A DNA stretch of 61,617 bases. Source: a virus. The notes beneath the pieces were generated by a model, which ran no database searches, was not told the origin of the DNA, and was given only the letters and a program-made list of their open reading frames with translations. Numbering within the stretch: the stretch's first letter is position 1; every line of letters begins with the position of its first letter. The stretch lies in IMG/VR virus record IMGVR_UViG_3300042691_031027, positions 1 through 61,617 of that record, one strand, 5' to 3'. Shown here piece by piece: positions 28,537-61,617 of this stretch. Made by a program: the position numbers and the translations under genes.

Positions 28537-28571
28537 TTTTATTTTAAATATAATTGAAATACTTGGGTTAA
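28537..28571 (-). promoter_or_regulatory. Phage 18-nt-spacer element (TTAACC type)
   Basis: Minus strand TTAACC, 18 nt ending ATAT, TTAAAATAAAAA, then ATGATGGAA. The box overlaps the stop codon region of the NlpC/P60 gene. Confidence 0.5.
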
Positions 28572-28993
28572 AGCCTTCCAACACCAATAAGTGTTTTTAG
28601 ATAATGTCCTTCTAAACAACTTATTTTAACACCTTCTCTATAATTAGCAGCATGAATAAACTCATCGTTGCCTATGTAAACACCAACATGTCTTCCACTT
28701 GGGCTAGTTCTACTATTAAAAAATAACACATCACCTATTCGCAATAGACTGATATTAATTAAAGTGAAATATTTTAGTTGTGTTTTAGTTGTACGTGGTA
28801 TGATTATGTTGTAAACATCTTTATATAGTCGTTTAACAAATGCTGAACAGTCAATACCTTTCTCACTATTACCTCCATAACGATATGGTTTACCTACCCA
28901 TTTAGTTATGAACTGAGTTAATGTTGTAGTGTCCTGTCCATTAGCTATTGTAGTAGCAATTGATAATAATAGTATGGTGATTAATTTTCTCAC
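28568..28993 (-). CDS. Secreted NlpC/P60 peptidoglycan endopeptidase
   Basis: 141 aa. Signal peptide MRKLITILLLSIATTIANGQ, then the NlpC/P60 domain: YRYGGNSEKGIDCSAFVKRL (catalytic Cys), RIGDVLFFNSRTSPSGRHVG (catalytic His), VYIGNDEFIHAAN (third position). Complete and of standard length. Cleaves stem peptides in the periplasm; could assist lysis or weaken the wall. Overlaps the thyX stop by four bases. Confidence 0.82.
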   Translation of the reverse strand: MRKLITILLLSIATTIANGQDTTTLTQFITKWVGKPYRYGGNSEKGIDCSAFVKRLYKDVYNIIIPRTTKTQLKYFTLINISLLRIGDVLFFNSRTSPSGRHVGVYIGNDEFIHAANYREGVKISCLEGHYLKTLIGVGRL

Positions 28994-51008: not shown

Positions 51009-51698
51009 TTATTTAATATATATGTTTAAAGTTAAATTATTATTTTCATCTATATTGTATCCAATAATAGATACTTTTTTATTATGATGATAATCAAAAA
51101 AATCTTTTACCATTTTTGAGTTTGTATTGTTTATTTTAAAACATAGTTCTGTTAAAATTTCTTTACATTCACTAACATCTACAAATGAAATTATATGATG
51201 AAATGTATTATCATTTTTAGTGAAACCATAAGGCTGTAATAAATCAAATATATTTAAATTAAATTTTTCAACTATATAATCTGATAATATTTTATTATGA
51301 GAACTATCAAATAAATTATATTGGCTAATCGTATCAGTGTTTTCATCATATGAGTATATCCATGTACTTGTGATATATTTTTCTTCTTCAGGTGTGTCAA
51401 GAGGAACTAATTCAAAATAAAGTTCCTTATCACCATCTAAAAATCCAATATATTGGTTAATTATAACATTCTCATAAGTACTATAAACATGATCTATAAA
51501 ATCACAAGTCTTATCTGGATTATCAAATAAATTGGTGACTAACTTTTTAAGTGTATCTTTATCAGTTATAAATTTAATATTGATTTTATCATTAGTACAT
51601 TTCTCATTAGATATTTTTAAGCCATATTCAAGACTGTACTCTAAATCATTAATAGTTTTATCAAACTCTTTTATAAAGTCATTAATATTTGTAATCAT
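51009..51698 (-). CDS. Hypothetical protein
   Basis: 229 aa from ATG 51698 (MITNINDFIKEFDKTINDLE), whose ATG overlaps the gp44 TGA (ATGA). Acidic, Asp/Asn-rich alpha/beta protein without recognised motif (YITSTWIYSYDENTDTISQY, FHHIISFVDVSECKEILTEL). Confidence 0.55.
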   Translation of the reverse strand: MITNINDFIKEFDKTINDLEYSLEYGLKISNEKCTNDKINIKFITDKDTLKKLVTNLFDNPDKTCDFIDHVYSTYENVIINQYIGFLDGDKELYFELVPLDTPEEEKYITSTWIYSYDENTDTISQYNLFDSSHNKILSDYIVEKFNLNIFDLLQPYGFTKNDNTFHHIISFVDVSECKEILTELCFKINNTNSKMVKDFFDYHHNKKVSIIGYNIDENNNLTLNIYIK

Positions 51699-52594
51699 AT
51701 GTTTAAAAGTTTTGAAATACAAGCCATAAAACAGATCTCTTTATCACTTATGGTAGTTGAGTGAAATAAATATTCTTCTATTATTATTGTTGCTTCTGGT
51801 GATGAATATTCATTATGAAGTTCTTTATATAGACCAGTGAAGTCATTTATGTTGTTATCAGCTATAATTTGTCTAATATTATTAAATGCTGTTTTCTTTT
51901 TTGATTTAACTTCTGTTATAATTTGTTCTATATAATTAGAACTAGTGACATTCTTAACTATTAATTTACGTTTACCATCTCCATTAACAGATAAACCTTG
52001 AAGTAAATTTAATGCTCGTCTAATATCAGGATATGTTTTCTTTACTATTTCAACTACATCCTTAATATCATACTCTACTTGTTCTATATCAAGTACTTCC
52101 TTTAAACGTTTAGCTATAGTTTTTGCTTCTGGAGTATTTAAAGCAAATATAGTTAATCTTGATTGTAGTGGATCAATAATACGTTCTACAAAATTACAAG
52201 TGAATATGAACCTAGTAGTTAAACTAAATGACTCAATAACATTTCTAAGTGCTGCTTGAGCATTTATAGTTAAAAAATCAGCTTCATCTAATATAACAAC
52301 TTTAAGTGGTTTAAATGTAGCGCCTGAAGCAAATTGTTTCACTTTATCTCTAATAGTGTCAATACCATTTTCATCACTACAATTTAAATATAAGTGATCA
52401 CAATTAATATTTTTAACTACTAACTTAGCAGCGGTTGTTTTACCAGTACCTGGAGGTCCATAAAGTAATAAATTGGGAAAATCATTTTTACTGATCCATG
52501 TTTCTAGGCTAGATATAAAATCTTCATTACCTAGATAACCTTCTAAAGTATCAGGACGATACTTTTCAACCCATAACGTGTGTTTATTTATCAT
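51695..52594 (-). CDS. Clamp-loader large subunit, T4 gp44-like AAA+ ATPase
   Basis: 299 aa; T4 gp44 is 319 aa. WVEKYRPDTLEGYLGNEDFI, then NLLLYGPPGTGKTTAAKLVV (Walker A), KVVILDEADFLTINAQAALR (Walker B DEAD and sensor region), RFIFTCNFVERIIDPLQSRL (SRC-type Arg motif) are all present. Loads the sliding clamp onto DNA for replication and, in T4, late transcription with gp55. Confidence 0.93.
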   Translation of the reverse strand: MINKHTLWVEKYRPDTLEGYLGNEDFISSLETWISKNDFPNLLLYGPPGTGKTTAAKLVVKNINCDHLYLNCSDENGIDTIRDKVKQFASGATFKPLKVVILDEADFLTINAQAALRNVIESFSLTTRFIFTCNFVERIIDPLQSRLTIFALNTPEAKTIAKRLKEVLDIEQVEYDIKDVVEIVKKTYPDIRRALNLLQGLSVNGDGKRKLIVKNVTSSNYIEQIITEVKSKKKTAFNNIRQIIADNNINDFTGLYKELHNEYSSPEATIIIEEYLFHSTTISDKEICFMACISKLLNI

Positions 52595-52600
52595 AACTTA

Positions 52601-52813
52601 TTAAATATAATCTAAAATTAACTCTTCTCCAAAGTGAAGATATTGGAGTGTTTTAAATTTGGACTCATTATCAAGCGGTTTTGCTTCTTTATAATCTGAG
52701 TCCCAAATACATTGTCCACCATAAGCTAATCCACAAAAATATTCTAGTTTAGAGTTCATAACAATAAACCATTTCCTATTTTTAGCTTCTTCTTTTTGTT
52801 TCTTTCCCTTCAT
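52601..52813 (-). CDS. Small hypothetical protein
   Basis: 70 aa (MKGKKQKEEAKNRKWFIVMN, then SKLEYFCGLAYGGQCIWDSD). The element at 52809-52842 ends in this ATG. Unrecognised. Confidence 0.55.
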   Translation of the reverse strand: MKGKKQKEEAKNRKWFIVMNSKLEYFCGLAYGGQCIWDSDYKEAKPLDNESKFKTLQYLHFGEELILDYI

Positions 52814-52844: not shown

Positions 52845-54830
52845 TTATCTCCTAAATGTTATACTTCTACCATACGTTGCTGCTATATAAACAATCCCAG
52901 ACTGTAAAGAGTTTACATTAATAAAAAAACCATTAGCATTATAGTTAGTAACTTGTGAAATTGAGCCAAGCTCATTTGTGATTACCATTGTACCAGCCAC
53001 ATTACATTTAATGTATATTCGTCTGTTTGTAGAGCTATAATAGAAACTAGATATTATAATAGGACTTGTACAAGTTCGTCGAATACTATCTGTGGGTGGA
53101 GAACCTAAACACCCTGATGGGGAGGAAGTATATGATCTTGTTTGTTGACTAGATGTATTACATACTGACCATGATCCATAAGTGAAGGTACATGGTATAG
53201 TTGTGGGGGTTTGTTGATATAATCCAATAGATGTATTTCCAGTTATAATATTACCAGCTAAATCTTTTAATAATCCAGTTGATACTCCGTTTGCTACGGC
53301 ATAGCTCGTATCTAATAAACGCATATCCCAATTTTCAGGATTATTATTTATTGTGTCTTTAAAAATAGCAGTATTAATTATTCTTTCACCAGCTCCTAAA
53401 GTTACCCCATTAGGTCCAAGTTTTGTAGGATAAAAATCTGTTCCTAAAATATGATATATATTGTTTCTTCTCTTTGTATTCACATAAGTACTAGGGGGTA
53501 ATACTTGTACACCTGCTGTTACCCAAAATATATTATTTCTTACATCATAAAGTGTATCTGTGGGTACCCCAGTATCTGTGCCATATTTTAAAGCATATCC
53601 TCCATTATATTCTCCTAAATTACGAGATTTACTATATGGATATGAATTAGGTAAAATACCAGTTCCGTTTCCCCAAGAAGGAAATTGAGTAAATGATTGT
53701 CCATCTCCATAGATATCTGTTCCAAATCTTGGTCCACCTCCCATTCTACTAAATTGATTGAATACATAAACATTATTCCATACTCTTATTTTTCTGTATA
53801 TACCATACCCAAATGCTCCTACCCTAGTCGGGACATACATCCAGGTACCTATGTTTATAAATTTATTATAAGCAAATGTATCCTCTATAGCCCCAAGTGA
53901 TGTATTACCTGTTAAATTTCCAAATTCAACACCCCCATCACAATCTATAATTGTATTGTATCCAACAAAAGAACTATCAAACGGAGCTATAACTTCTATT
54001 CCTGATCCATTTAATCCCTGACCAGATGCTGTAGCACCTGTAAAAGCCCAACCTCCTTTTATGTAATTATTAGTAATTCTATTATATCTACCTGTTATTA
54101 TAATTGGTATAGCACCCACATCATATTGACCAGTAGTATCACCTGAATTTTTAAGATTAGTTATCTTATTATTATCGATAATAAGTCTATTACCAGAAGC
54201 AGATATACCGTACGCTATATTATTAAAATAACAGTTTTTAATAGTAATGTTATATGTTTTAGACAAAGTAGTATTAGTAATATCTATACCATAAGAGGTA
54301 AGTGCAGTACCTACTTTATCAGTTGCTGAGAATCTATAATCGTTGAATTGTAAACCATCTATGACTATATCATGTACATCTTGAAATCCAAATACACCTC
54401 GATTAGTAGCATCAGTTTGAGCTGCAGGGGTTGGATAAAGCATATTTGGTAATGGTAAATTAACATCACCATAATTAGTGAAAACAATAGGAGCATTAGC
54501 AGTACCACTAGGAGCTCTATAATATCCAGTAGTTCCATCATTCCACCATAATACACTACGGAACCAAGATGTTGAATTGAGTCCATTAGCAAATACATCT
54601 CCTCTTTTAAAAGCTAATGTATCTCCTGGTTGGAATAATGTACCTAAATTACCACTCCTTGCTATTACATAATAACTTATTTTACTTAATGTGGCCCAAG
54701 GAGTTGATGGATTTTGAGCTTGGATTGATGTATATGAATCATTTCCTGTTGAGCTACTAAAATAAAATTTTCTAGCTTGAGCTGTAAATATTATAAATAA
54801 TAATATGAACAACAAAATTAGTTGTTTCAT
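52845..54830 (-). CDS. Exported parallel beta-helix protein with TSP1-like and T9SS-like tail
   Basis: 661 aa. Signal peptide MKQLILLFILLFIIFTAQA; then a right-handed beta-helix of about 400 residues (repeated N-x-x-I strands, e.g. YNITIKNCYFNNIAYGISAS, then RLIIDNNKITNLKNSGD); a short Cys-rich TSP1-like segment, CTFTYGSWSVCNTSSQQTR, with later SGCLGS and RRTCTSP; and a C-terminal 65-residue beta-domain ending INVNSLQSGIVYIAATYGRS, which resembles type A T9SS sorting tails. It could be a tail-spike-like hydrolase, but the signal peptide indicates export from the infected cell. No active-site residues assigned. Confidence 0.68.
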   Translation of the reverse strand: MKQLILLFILLFIIFTAQARKFYFSSSTGNDSYTSIQAQNPSTPWATLSKISYYVIARSGNLGTLFQPGDTLAFKRGDVFANGLNSTSWFRSVLWWNDGTTGYYRAPSGTANAPIVFTNYGDVNLPLPNMLYPTPAAQTDATNRGVFGFQDVHDIVIDGLQFNDYRFSATDKVGTALTSYGIDITNTTLSKTYNITIKNCYFNNIAYGISASGNRLIIDNNKITNLKNSGDTTGQYDVGAIPIIITGRYNRITNNYIKGGWAFTGATASGQGLNGSGIEVIAPFDSSFVGYNTIIDCDGGVEFGNLTGNTSLGAIEDTFAYNKFINIGTWMYVPTRVGAFGYGIYRKIRVWNNVYVFNQFSRMGGGPRFGTDIYGDGQSFTQFPSWGNGTGILPNSYPYSKSRNLGEYNGGYALKYGTDTGVPTDTLYDVRNNIFWVTAGVQVLPPSTYVNTKRRNNIYHILGTDFYPTKLGPNGVTLGAGERIINTAIFKDTINNNPENWDMRLLDTSYAVANGVSTGLLKDLAGNIITGNTSIGLYQQTPTTIPCTFTYGSWSVCNTSSQQTRSYTSSPSGCLGSPPTDSIRRTCTSPIIISSFYYSSTNRRIYIKCNVAGTMVITNELGSISQVTNYNANGFFINVNSLQSGIVYIAATYGRSITFRR

Positions 54831-57259: not shown

Positions 57260-58081
57260 TTAAGCTAATAGTGAATAATATTCTTTGAAATGTTTAAGAC
57301 GATCAGGTAAACCAATTGTACCTCCATTAACACATTTAGTTACTGAAGTGACAGCAGCATCTGAAGCATCTGTACATCTGCCTAAACAGTTCTTATGGAA
57401 GAACCAAGCAGCTGATAATAATGGATATTTTGTTGAAACTAAATCAGGATTAGCTATAATATCATCATCAACAAATTTATCAAACTGTGAGTAGTTATCC
57501 TTACCAGTTAATTGAATATAACCACGTCCACGGAATTTGTATCCATCACCTGATGATTCAGGACCATTACCCATACGATTACCATAAACTAAGTTAGCTA
57601 TTTTTTCTGGTTTACGCTCATATAATTCAGCTTTAGTACCATCAGGAAAATATTTCTTAAATATACCTAATAATCCTTTAGCGCTATAGTTTAAATTTTC
57701 TTGTGTTAGTTTGAATCCACCTGATTCATGTCCACATTGAGCTAAGAAGTGAGCTAATTTGACAGCTGTATCAATTTTGAATTTAGTCATTACTTCTGGT
57801 ATCTGAGCTATAACAGCATCAGGTATGTGTCCTTTTAATTTACTTAAATTAACACCACCTACGCTAGCTACAGGTGCAGCAGCAGGAGCTGGTTGGCTAC
57901 CGCCAAACATTTTTCCCCAAGTACCATCACCAACAATACCATCAGCTGTTAATCCATTTTCAGTTTGGAATTTTTTTACTGCAGCTTCTGTACCTGCTCC
58001 GAAGATACCATCAGCTGTTAATCCTAATTTTGATTGGAGTTTTTTTACATCTTCTCCAGTTGATCCTTTTTTTAGTAACAT
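57260..58081 (-). CDS. Endolysin: PG-binding domain plus GH19 lysozyme
   Basis: 273 aa. N-terminal PG_binding_1 domain (GEDVKKLQSKLGLTADGIFG, then AVKKFQTENGLTADGIVGDG). The GH19 catalytic domain follows after an Ala/Pro linker: VKLAHFLAQCGHESGGFKLT with catalytic Glu, YKFRGRGYIQLTGKDNY and AAWFFHKN. Complete. It lacks a signal peptide, so it needs the holin to reach the wall. Confidence 0.92.
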   Translation of the reverse strand: MLLKKGSTGEDVKKLQSKLGLTADGIFGAGTEAAVKKFQTENGLTADGIVGDGTWGKMFGGSQPAPAAAPVASVGGVNLSKLKGHIPDAVIAQIPEVMTKFKIDTAVKLAHFLAQCGHESGGFKLTQENLNYSAKGLLGIFKKYFPDGTKAELYERKPEKIANLVYGNRMGNGPESSGDGYKFRGRGYIQLTGKDNYSQFDKFVDDDIIANPDLVSTKYPLLSAAWFFHKNCLGRCTDASDAAVTSVTKCVNGGTIGLPDRLKHFKEYYSLLA

Positions 58082-59438: not shown

Positions 59439-59447
59439 ATTTCGCTG

Positions 59448-59818
59448 TGGAGATGGCGGGAATCGAACCCGCGTCTCCAAAAGTAAAAATAACATTAGCG
59501 TATCACATGCTTAGTACTACTTGCGTTGCACCGTAATTAGGGAACTAACCAGTAATTAGTTAGAACGCTCCACCACCTAGTTTTGAGAAAATTAGGAAAA
59601 CAAATGCTGTTCTGTTGCAAGGTTCTCAGCTACCCCGGTCGATTAAGCCGCTACTGCGTACTCATCCGCTCCTACGAAAGACATCATGTCTTCGAAGGTC
59701 CAAGTAGAAAGTTCTACGTTGTCGTTTATTGGTTTGTTCAGATATTAAAGTGGATTAGAACCATACCACTGCATGTAATGTTACCTTTCTCATCTGGATC
59801 AAGTCCATGTCATCCCCT
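59448..59818 (-). ncRNA. ssrA: Transfer-messenger RNA (tmRNA), tag ADEYAVAA
   Basis: 371 nt. The 5' end GGGGATGACATGGACTTGAT pairs with the 3' CATCTCC; the T arm is GCGGG TTCGATT CCCGC and the discriminator is A; CCA not encoded. The tag frame (59643-59669 with stop) reads GCG GAT GAG TAC GCA GTA GCG GCT TAA, giving ADEYAVAA, preceded by TAGGA, as expected for the resume-codon context. The tag ends in AVAA, matching the -ALAA/-AVAA ends recognised by ClpXP-type proteases. The remaining nucleotides form the pseudoknot-rich body. Rescues stalled ribosomes with host SmpB. Confidence 0.93.
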
Positions 59819-60826: not shown

Positions 60827-61617
60827 TTAGAATCCCATTCCTGGATCACCAAACCCTTCCTCTTTTTTATCTTTTGTTGGTTCATCATGAACAACAGTTT
60901 CTGTAGTTAATATAGTACCGGCTACAGCAGCTGCATTTTCAACGGCTAAACGAGTTACTTTAGTTGGATCTAAAATACCAGCGTCAAGCATATCAACAAA
61001 AGTTTCTGTTTTTAAATCGTAACCTTTCCAATTATCTAAATTACCTTCACCTAATTCATACAAATACCTTTCTGGTGTTTCATAACCAGCATTTTTAAGA
61101 ATTTGAGTGAATGGTGATGATAATGCTTTATGAACAATTTTCTTACCTGTTTTAATATCATCACTTTCATCTTCTCCATATGTAATAGCTTCTCTAGCAT
61201 ATAATAAAGCAGCTCCACCTCCAGGTAATACTCCTTCTTCTACAGCAGCGCGAGTGGCGAATAAAGCATCTTCAACTCTATCTTTATACTCTTTCAACTC
61301 AATTTCATTATTACCACCTACATTGACAATAGCTACTCCACCAACTAATTTACCTAAACGTTCTTGTAGTTTTTCTTTTTCAAACATTGATTGAGCAGTG
61401 TCAATTTGAGCCTTAATTTCTTCAGCTCTAGCAGTAATAGCTTCTTCAGTTCCTTTACCATCAACAACAGTTGTTTTATCTTTAGTCACATTAACTGTTC
61501 TTGCTTTACCTAAGTAAGCTGATAATTGAGCTACTGTTAATTTGTCTAGTTTTAATCCTTTTTCTTTACTAATAACTTGACCACCAGTGACAATAGCTAA
61601 ATCTTCTAATAACAATG
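60827..61617 (-). CDS. groEL: GroEL-like 60-kDa chaperonin, partial (5' end outside window)
   Basis: At least 263 residues, corresponding to about residues 285-end of E. coli GroEL. IVTGGQVISKEKGLKLDKLT, EKEKLQERLGKLVGGVAIVN, VEDALFATRAAVEEGVLPGG (with the ATPase Asp), and VTRLAVENAAAVAGTILTTE are all present. It ends GFGDPGMGF without the long GGM tail of cellular GroEL. The apparent start near 61615 is an internal TTG; the frame is open to the window end. Folds phage or host proteins during infection. Confidence 0.93.
   Translation of the reverse strand, partial: LLLEDLAIVTGGQVISKEKGLKLDKLTVAQLSAYLGKARTVNVTKDKTTVVDGKGTEEAITARAEEIKAQIDTAQSMFEKEKLQERLGKLVGGVAIVNVGGNNEIELKEYKDRVEDALFATRAAVEEGVLPGGGAALLYAREAITYGEDESDDIKTGKKIVHKALSSPFTQILKNAGYETPERYLYELGEGNLDNWKGYDLKTETFVDMLDAGILDPTKVTRLAVENAAAVAGTILTTETVVHDEPTKDKKEEGFGDPGMGF

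Follow-up and report, generated by a model that had tools for sequence, protein, structure and literature searches.

A phage-encoded beta-helix protein with a predicted leader and a C-terminal tail related to type IX secretion sorting domains

Lyases on phage tails are known, and the tailspikes of HK620, Sf6 and CBA120 are virion proteins assembled in the cytoplasm. SprA is the translocon of the type IX secretion system (T9SS). T9SS type A sorting domains on phage proteins were described for Cryophage, a 76-kb Bacteroidetes phage, with an endoglucanase, a GH39 protein and a PA14 protein as cargo (Bellas et al. 2020, PMC7468147). That paper presents the occurrence as unique, proposes hijacking of the host system and suggests that such proteins serve in competition or in superinfection exclusion. 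It was the only report of phage-encoded T9SS cargo in the literature searched, preprints and most subscription papers being outside the scope of the search. A further paper, PMC10013915, concerns a bacterial T9SS.

Here, a 661-aa protein encoded by a phage was analyzed. With a probability of about 60%, we consider it to be phage-encoded cargo of a putative host T9SS, with surface or matrix glycan as its probable target.

The beta-helix gene and its family

The window, the whole stretch of DNA that was analyzed, comprises positions 1 to 61,617 (61.6 kb) of IMG/VR virus record IMGVR_UViG_3300042691_031027. An intact ORF of 661 codons with an ATG start is located on the minus strand, running from 54830 to 52845 (52845..54830), and encodes the predicted exported beta-helix protein with its T9SS-like tail. 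The plus strand across 52845-54830 contains stops throughout. Phage identity is marked by a T4-type DNA polymerase clamp loader (51695..52594, minus strand; phrog_168, E 2.3e-78), whose closest phage matches are T4-like. A 70-aa neighbour protein (52601..52813, minus strand) has a 66% homologue about 5 kb from the beta-helix gene of the related phage G007. An endolysin is encoded in the same region (57260..58081, minus strand; phrog_181, E 1e-65), as is an exonuclease near the beta-helix gene.

Elsewhere in the window, a tmRNA with the tag ADEYAVAA was predicted by ARAGORN at 59447-59817 (minus strand), close to tRNA-Leu and tRNA-Glu genes; the two listed plus-strand ORFs that overlap it are probably spurious. 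The C-terminal part of a GroEL-like chaperonin, recognized by eye, lies at the window edge (60827-61615, minus strand) and has a 54% homologue in G007. At 28568-28993 (minus strand), a 141-aa protein with a leader by heuristic is NlpC/P60 peptidase-like by eye.

Searches with the window protein alone returned little. No PHROG family was matched at E<=0.01, and when the whole protein was compared by tblastn with 50,697 phage records, a single weak match was obtained (34% identity over 16%). By sequence, no convincing match was obtained in PDB. The sole weak NCBIfam match, to FabI (E 0.0042-0.014), aligned the tail to the interior of the enoyl reductase and was taken as chance.

A pattern scan with the single window protein identified one relative. 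Scans with family alignments identified 20, then 26 viral loci (overlapping sets), together with three loci in bacterial genomes. Nineteen distinct phage proteins have complete ends (P0001, L001, L005, L007-L014, L016, L018, L023, L117, L118, L122, L136 and L137). Left out of alignments A2 and A4 were L006, which lies on the same contig as L001, the identical copies L015, L019, L020 and L022, the truncated L017 and L021, and L003, L004 and L024, in which similarity is confined to the N-terminus. Both alignments were made without L117, L118, L122, L136 and L137, which were found later. Ten virus records were scanned in full for leader peptides. Of 18 virus records, several of which are fragments, 4 contain a terminase (PF03237); for the others, phage identity was taken from the IMG/VR classification and shared genes.

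In phages, the beta-helix gene has been expanded and duplicated. Between L013 and L136, identity amounts to 92% in the helix, 74% in the Cys module and 47% in the tail. The dN/dS of this pair is 0.09 over 624 codons, which points to strong purifying selection on the helix. The faster evolution of the tail relative to the helix fits swapping and, equally, relaxed constraint.

Architecture of the window protein

The window protein begins with MKQLILLFILLFIIFTAQA, followed by RKFYFS. By simple hydropathy and the AxA site, this is a classical Sec/SPase I leader (residues 1-19; 54774..54830, minus strand), with predicted cleavage after TAQA and before RKFYFS; a Sec signal peptide as found on T9SS type A cargo is thus indicated by this heuristic, and the strong signal peptide claimed in the first-pass annotation was upheld. 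A helix was predicted at residues 2-17 in the AlphaFold2 model. Directly after the leader, RKFYFSSSTGND forms the first turn of the beta-helix. The boundary between leader and RKFYFS is also kept in relatives, and a leader peptide is present in 19/19 distinct phage homologues with complete ends (14 by heuristic, 5 read by eye).

About residues 20-537 (53220..54773, minus strand) form a right-handed parallel beta-helix according to the AlphaFold2 model, PDB matches and invariant polar residues. The full-length model was moderate (pLDDT 69.2) and good in the helix region. Matches in PDB reached Z 20-25 over about 270-350 residues, bearing out the long parallel beta-helix that had been read from the sequence at first pass. 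Among them were alginate lyase 6kfn (Z 25.3 over 270 residues), which we take to be a PL31 enzyme, as well as mannuronan epimerases, RbmB and phage tailspikes. Helix identity across the family is about 40-50%, with many invariant polar residues, including D158, D164, R166, D171, K172 and D372.

With Foldseek, the top match of the beta-helix was GH136 lacto-N-biosidase LnbX (E 1.7e-9). At the sequence level, support for GH136 membership was confined to the N-terminal ~80 residues of the helix of one relative, which the LnbX model matched, and the likeness of the beta-helix to GH136 appears to be one of fold only. No glycan-enzyme model among Pfam and NCBIfam matched the window protein, the single listed rows being at chance level. 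For GH136, PL6 and PL31 alike, structural fold similarity was seen and a sequence family match was not. PL31 6kfn, PL6 and GH136 LnbX have the right-handed parallel beta-helix in common with the window protein; it differs from them in lacking sequence-level family membership and an identified catalytic site.

Between helix and tail lies a four-Cys module, CxxxYxxWxxC...RxC (residues 547-587; 53070..53192, minus strand), which is repeated in relatives; nine copies were aligned. It corresponds to the 'WSxC' segment CTFTYGSWSVCNTSSQQTRSYTSSPSGCLGSPPTDSIRRTC that was labelled TSP1-like at first pass. The Cys segment is real and the label is unsupported: TSP1 Pfam models gave no matches at E<=0.1 in 15 family members, the Cys-repeat profile gave none in PDB at E<=10, and identity with a thrombospondin type 1 repeat was rejected.

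The C-terminal tail and its occurrence

Residues 590-661, the extreme C-terminus of the 661-residue protein, form an Ig-like domain (52848..53063, minus strand) that, by profile comparison, is homologous to type A sorting domains of the T9SS but divergent from them. The INVNSLQSGIVYI pattern lies at the very C-terminus, inside this compact seven-stranded domain. Modelled alone, the tail was predicted as a seven-stranded sandwich with pLDDT 97.1. It is alignable to the T9SS-bound sorting domains of RemA and FspA (8gl6 and 8glj; Z 7.9 and 7.8), scored higher against DUF3244 (Z 9.9) and matched many FN3/Ig domains at Z 7.6-8.3. Since FN3/Ig and T9SS domains are tied, the Ig-like beta-sandwich is compatible with a sorting domain and does not discriminate.

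The first-pass annotation had called the tail T9SS-like, to be checked against TIGR04183/TIGR04131. Against these models and PF18962, the window protein gave no match, an outcome that the annotation had named as refuting. With an HMM of 26 bacterial sorting domains the window tail scored 5.6 bits; 37/5000 shuffles were equal or better, a weak excess over its own shuffles. Tails homologous to the window tail, at 32-68% identity with it, behaved differently. In an NCBIfam scan (18,950 models), 8/9 tails matched TIGR04183 with E 5.6e-6 to 0.027, the window tail being the miss; the single tail above the curated cut-off was that of a PL6 protein (26.3 vs 23 bits). Comparison of the tail profile with the 26 bacterial sorting domains gave hhalign probabilities of 92.7 (6 tails), 93.9 (9 tails) and 90.3 (8 tails, the closest one, L007, being left out). 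The 8-tail score was 32.6; the maximum in 300 column-shuffled alignments was 19.3 (0/300 reach the score). The alignment spans YY/NP through the end of the LxxGxY strand.

Given the TIGR04183 matches of 8/9 homologous tails and the clear result of the profile comparison, the label 'T9SS-like' is correct as far as homology goes. That the tail is homologous to type A sorting domains is well supported from sequence via the family, not via the window protein alone, which has no match of its own. Type A domains (TIGR04183/PF18962) and the tail are both C-terminal Ig-like sandwiches of ~70 residues, and the pattern IxI...G...ITN..G...INV..L.SG.Y is common to both. The tail differs in the loss of PNP, a motif that stands at the domain start in 25/26 bacterial domains and is replaced by YYSSTNR in the window protein. 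The window copy, moreover, has one inserted residue (GIVYIAAT) and falls below detection by type A models, and the tails of most relatives stay under the 23-bit cut-off.

Regions after the helix vary in the family, consisting of four-Cys modules, SprB-like repeats, FN3-like repeats or almost nothing. PF13573 (SprB-like) was matched in 5/15 sequences scanned, and further SprB-like assignments were made by eye. A tail of the window type is found at the C-terminus of 7/19 proteins (P0001, L005, L013, L018, L117, L118 and L136) and a SprB-like domain at that of 6/19 (L007, L008, L009, L012, L122 and L137); the remaining 6/19 (L001, L010, L011, L014, L016 and L023) have short or other ends. In L007, the tail-like domain is internal and about 80 residues follow it, with the SprB-like end. 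As 12/19 proteins are without a terminal tail, either those are exported by another route or the tail does not define export.

The tail-less members L001, L014, L016, L011, L023 and L010 carry a short basic-aromatic C-terminal stretch (SRLKFKN, RKRFVNKN, KRRYVQKP). When ORFs from ten records and the window were scanned for such ends by pattern, two family members and one unrelated sequence matched.

G007, which contains locus L013, has homologues for 27 of 103 filtered window ORFs, the highest number in ten records. A second G007 protein, unrelated to the beta-helix protein, ends in a tail of the window type (E 4.1e-21). It is PL6 lyase-like (PF14592, 202.6 bits), matches solved PL6 alginate lyases at E 1e-50 and has kept the ExEIxxNKS and LTxRxG stretches, presumably the calcium ligands and catalytic base of PL6. 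Judged from these sequences, the tail is a module carried on beta-helix and PL6 alginate-lyase-like proteins.

Sorting domains recognized by the curated models are encoded near the beta-helix gene in related phages. In G007, within the cluster that also holds the PL6 gene, a 194-aa type B protein is encoded 3-4 kb upstream of the beta-helix gene (PF13585, 46.7 bits, cut-off 27; a further score of the type B sorting domain was 45.1, cut-off 35). Genes further downstream in the same cluster encode L,D-transpeptidase and PD40-OmpA domain proteins that bear leaders. In the 170-kb G026 (locus L136), the order is similar to that in G007: a type B protein, a PKD-like protein, the beta-helix protein and a 335-aa exported protein, with the type B domain ~1.1 kb upstream of the beta-helix gene (45.8 bits, cut-off 35). 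In G008, a canonical type A domain (32.5 bits, cut-off 23) is carried by a 567-aa protein whose gene lies ~1 kb from the beta-helix gene. Type B cargo (TIGR04131/PF13585, CHU_C domain) was not found in the window record. Using tblastn against the phage collection, no match was obtained for the PL6 protein or the G008 type A protein, and two megaphage records were matched by the type B protein.

Several observations concern these neighbourhoods and phages. An exported PD40-OmpA protein is phage-encoded at L013:14482-15828; this architecture we take to be that of the T9SS component PorE. Upstream of the type B protein of G026, L136:1673-3217 encodes a lipoprotein-like, exported protein with Ig-like repeats and, by eye, a papain-like peptidase end. 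The uncultured phages LR745206.1 and LR756502.1 (635 and 642 kb; L150, L151, L152-L158) have four and three TIGR04131 matches, of which 3/4 and 3/3, respectively, are above the cut-off.

Relatives were also found in bacteria. In L002, from a Bacteroidota MAG, the family beta-helix is followed by SprB-like repeats and then by a canonical PNP tail. This MAG (G001) contains at least three copies of the beta-helix gene: a second, leader-bearing one lies on the contig of L002 and a third on another contig. SprA was found in 3/3 bacterial genomes with relatives and was not found in four phage records (that of the window, G003, G007 and G026). The cargo is thus carried by phages, and the machine would have to come from the host. 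In a search of 395 Bacteroidota genomes at E<=1e-20, no member of the beta-helix family was among the candidates listed, at most 3 per genome. The same query matched the MAG holding L002; since the search missed the one genome of the set with a known distant relative, it is weak evidence of rarity.

Proposed role and comparison with known systems

As phage-encoded T9SS cargo, the window protein would be exported by Sec, and signal peptidase I would cut off its first 19 residues. The host T9SS translocon may then take the Ig-like tail, the homology of which is described above, across the outer membrane. Once outside the infected cell, the beta-helix would most likely target its capsule, exopolysaccharide or biofilm matrix, serving as a lyase or hydrolase or else as a glycan-binding coat; such a role is suggested by its fold and by the presence of this tail on a PL6 lyase of a related phage. 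Easier release of progeny and spread through the matrix, or receptor masking, would be the likely gain. The phage would supply the cargo only, the machine being that of the host. Export through the T9SS, glycan cleavage and exclusion of other phages, all put forward at first pass, are roles that we infer. In favour of T9SS cargo are the leaders in 19/19 homologues, the tail profile, the TIGR04183 matches of 8/9 tails, the tail of the PL6 protein, the nearby type A and B domains, L002, SprA, the alignable fold of the tail, dN/dS and the Cryophage precedent.

An unmatched window tail, the lost PNP motif, a terminal tail in 7/19 homologues and an internal one in L007 count against T9SS cargo. The same features, with loss or replacement of the tail in 12/19, would be expected if the protein were exported by Sec only, remaining in the periplasm or being freed at lysis, with the tail retained from T9SS cargo as a stalk or glycan-binding domain that has lost its signal. 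We regard this as unlikely, as TIGR04183 is still matched by 8/9 tails, the tail is kept at the extreme C-terminus of two unrelated enzymes, and bona fide type A and type B domains are encoded nearby in related phages. Still less probable is a component of the virion tail spike or fibre, acting as a particle depolymerase with the leader as a hydrophobic anchor or as part of an export step before attachment. Tailspikes are among the fold matches, and in G010 the gene has a tail-fibre-like gene on either side, both with PHROG tail fibre/tail spike hits. The upstream gene in G005 and G013 encodes a long repetitive fibre-like protein with its own leader, and a leader-bearing neighbour in G008 has a match to the C-terminal end of virion structural PHROGs. 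With such leader-bearing fibre-like proteins in related phages, a virion role stays a rival. A protein that is only a virion spike is disfavoured by the clean signal peptide that leads directly into the first coil of the helix in 19/19 homologues. The homologues, moreover, have no virion-adaptor domain, and the window gene has the clamp loader and small membrane proteins, rather than tail genes, for neighbours. Signal-peptide-bearing fibre-like proteins adjoin the beta-helix gene at L111:155-3337 (G013), L107:10630-14415 (G005) and L078:6114-6635 (G008).

A passenger gene, recombined from a host surface-protein gene into phages and kept without benefit, would account for the copies in Bacteroidota MAG G001 and for the scatter over phages that share few other window genes (homologues for 3 to 12 of 103 ORFs in G003, G004, G006, G008 and G010). 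The dN/dS of 0.09 over 624 codons, the cluster conserved in G007 and G026, and expansion and duplication in phages make this highly improbable. We retain T9SS cargo as the preferred reading. Beyond it, we offer tentatively, and with the balance tilted against it, that large T4-like Bacteroidota phages might run a T9SS-borne surface programme by which the cell surface or matrix is dissolved or recoated before lysis. Such a programme might combine the leader-gene cluster and its exchangeable beta-helix and PL6 cargo with type B proteins and with type A domains of a clade that evolved in phages and that standard models would miss.

The window beta-helix shares its fold class with the phage tailspike depolymerases of HK620, Sf6 and CBA120, and differs from them in its leader peptide and sorting-domain-like end. 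A phage that made its host secrete lyases, instead of bearing them on its tail, would follow another strategy, and neighbours and biofilm would be affected by it. As the tail has diverged enough for model-based annotation to miss it, the frequency of such proteins in phages is probably underestimated. Both Cryophage and the window phage encode proteins with type A or type A-related sorting domains. The Cryophage domains are recognizable as type A, whereas the tail of the window family is a diverged clade; the family occurs in large T4-like and other phages, with beta-helix and PL6 cargo and with type B domains as well. What is new relative to Cryophage is a diverged, modular tail clade common to beta-helix and PL6 cargo, a type B partner as a second cargo class, and occurrence in large T4-like phages.
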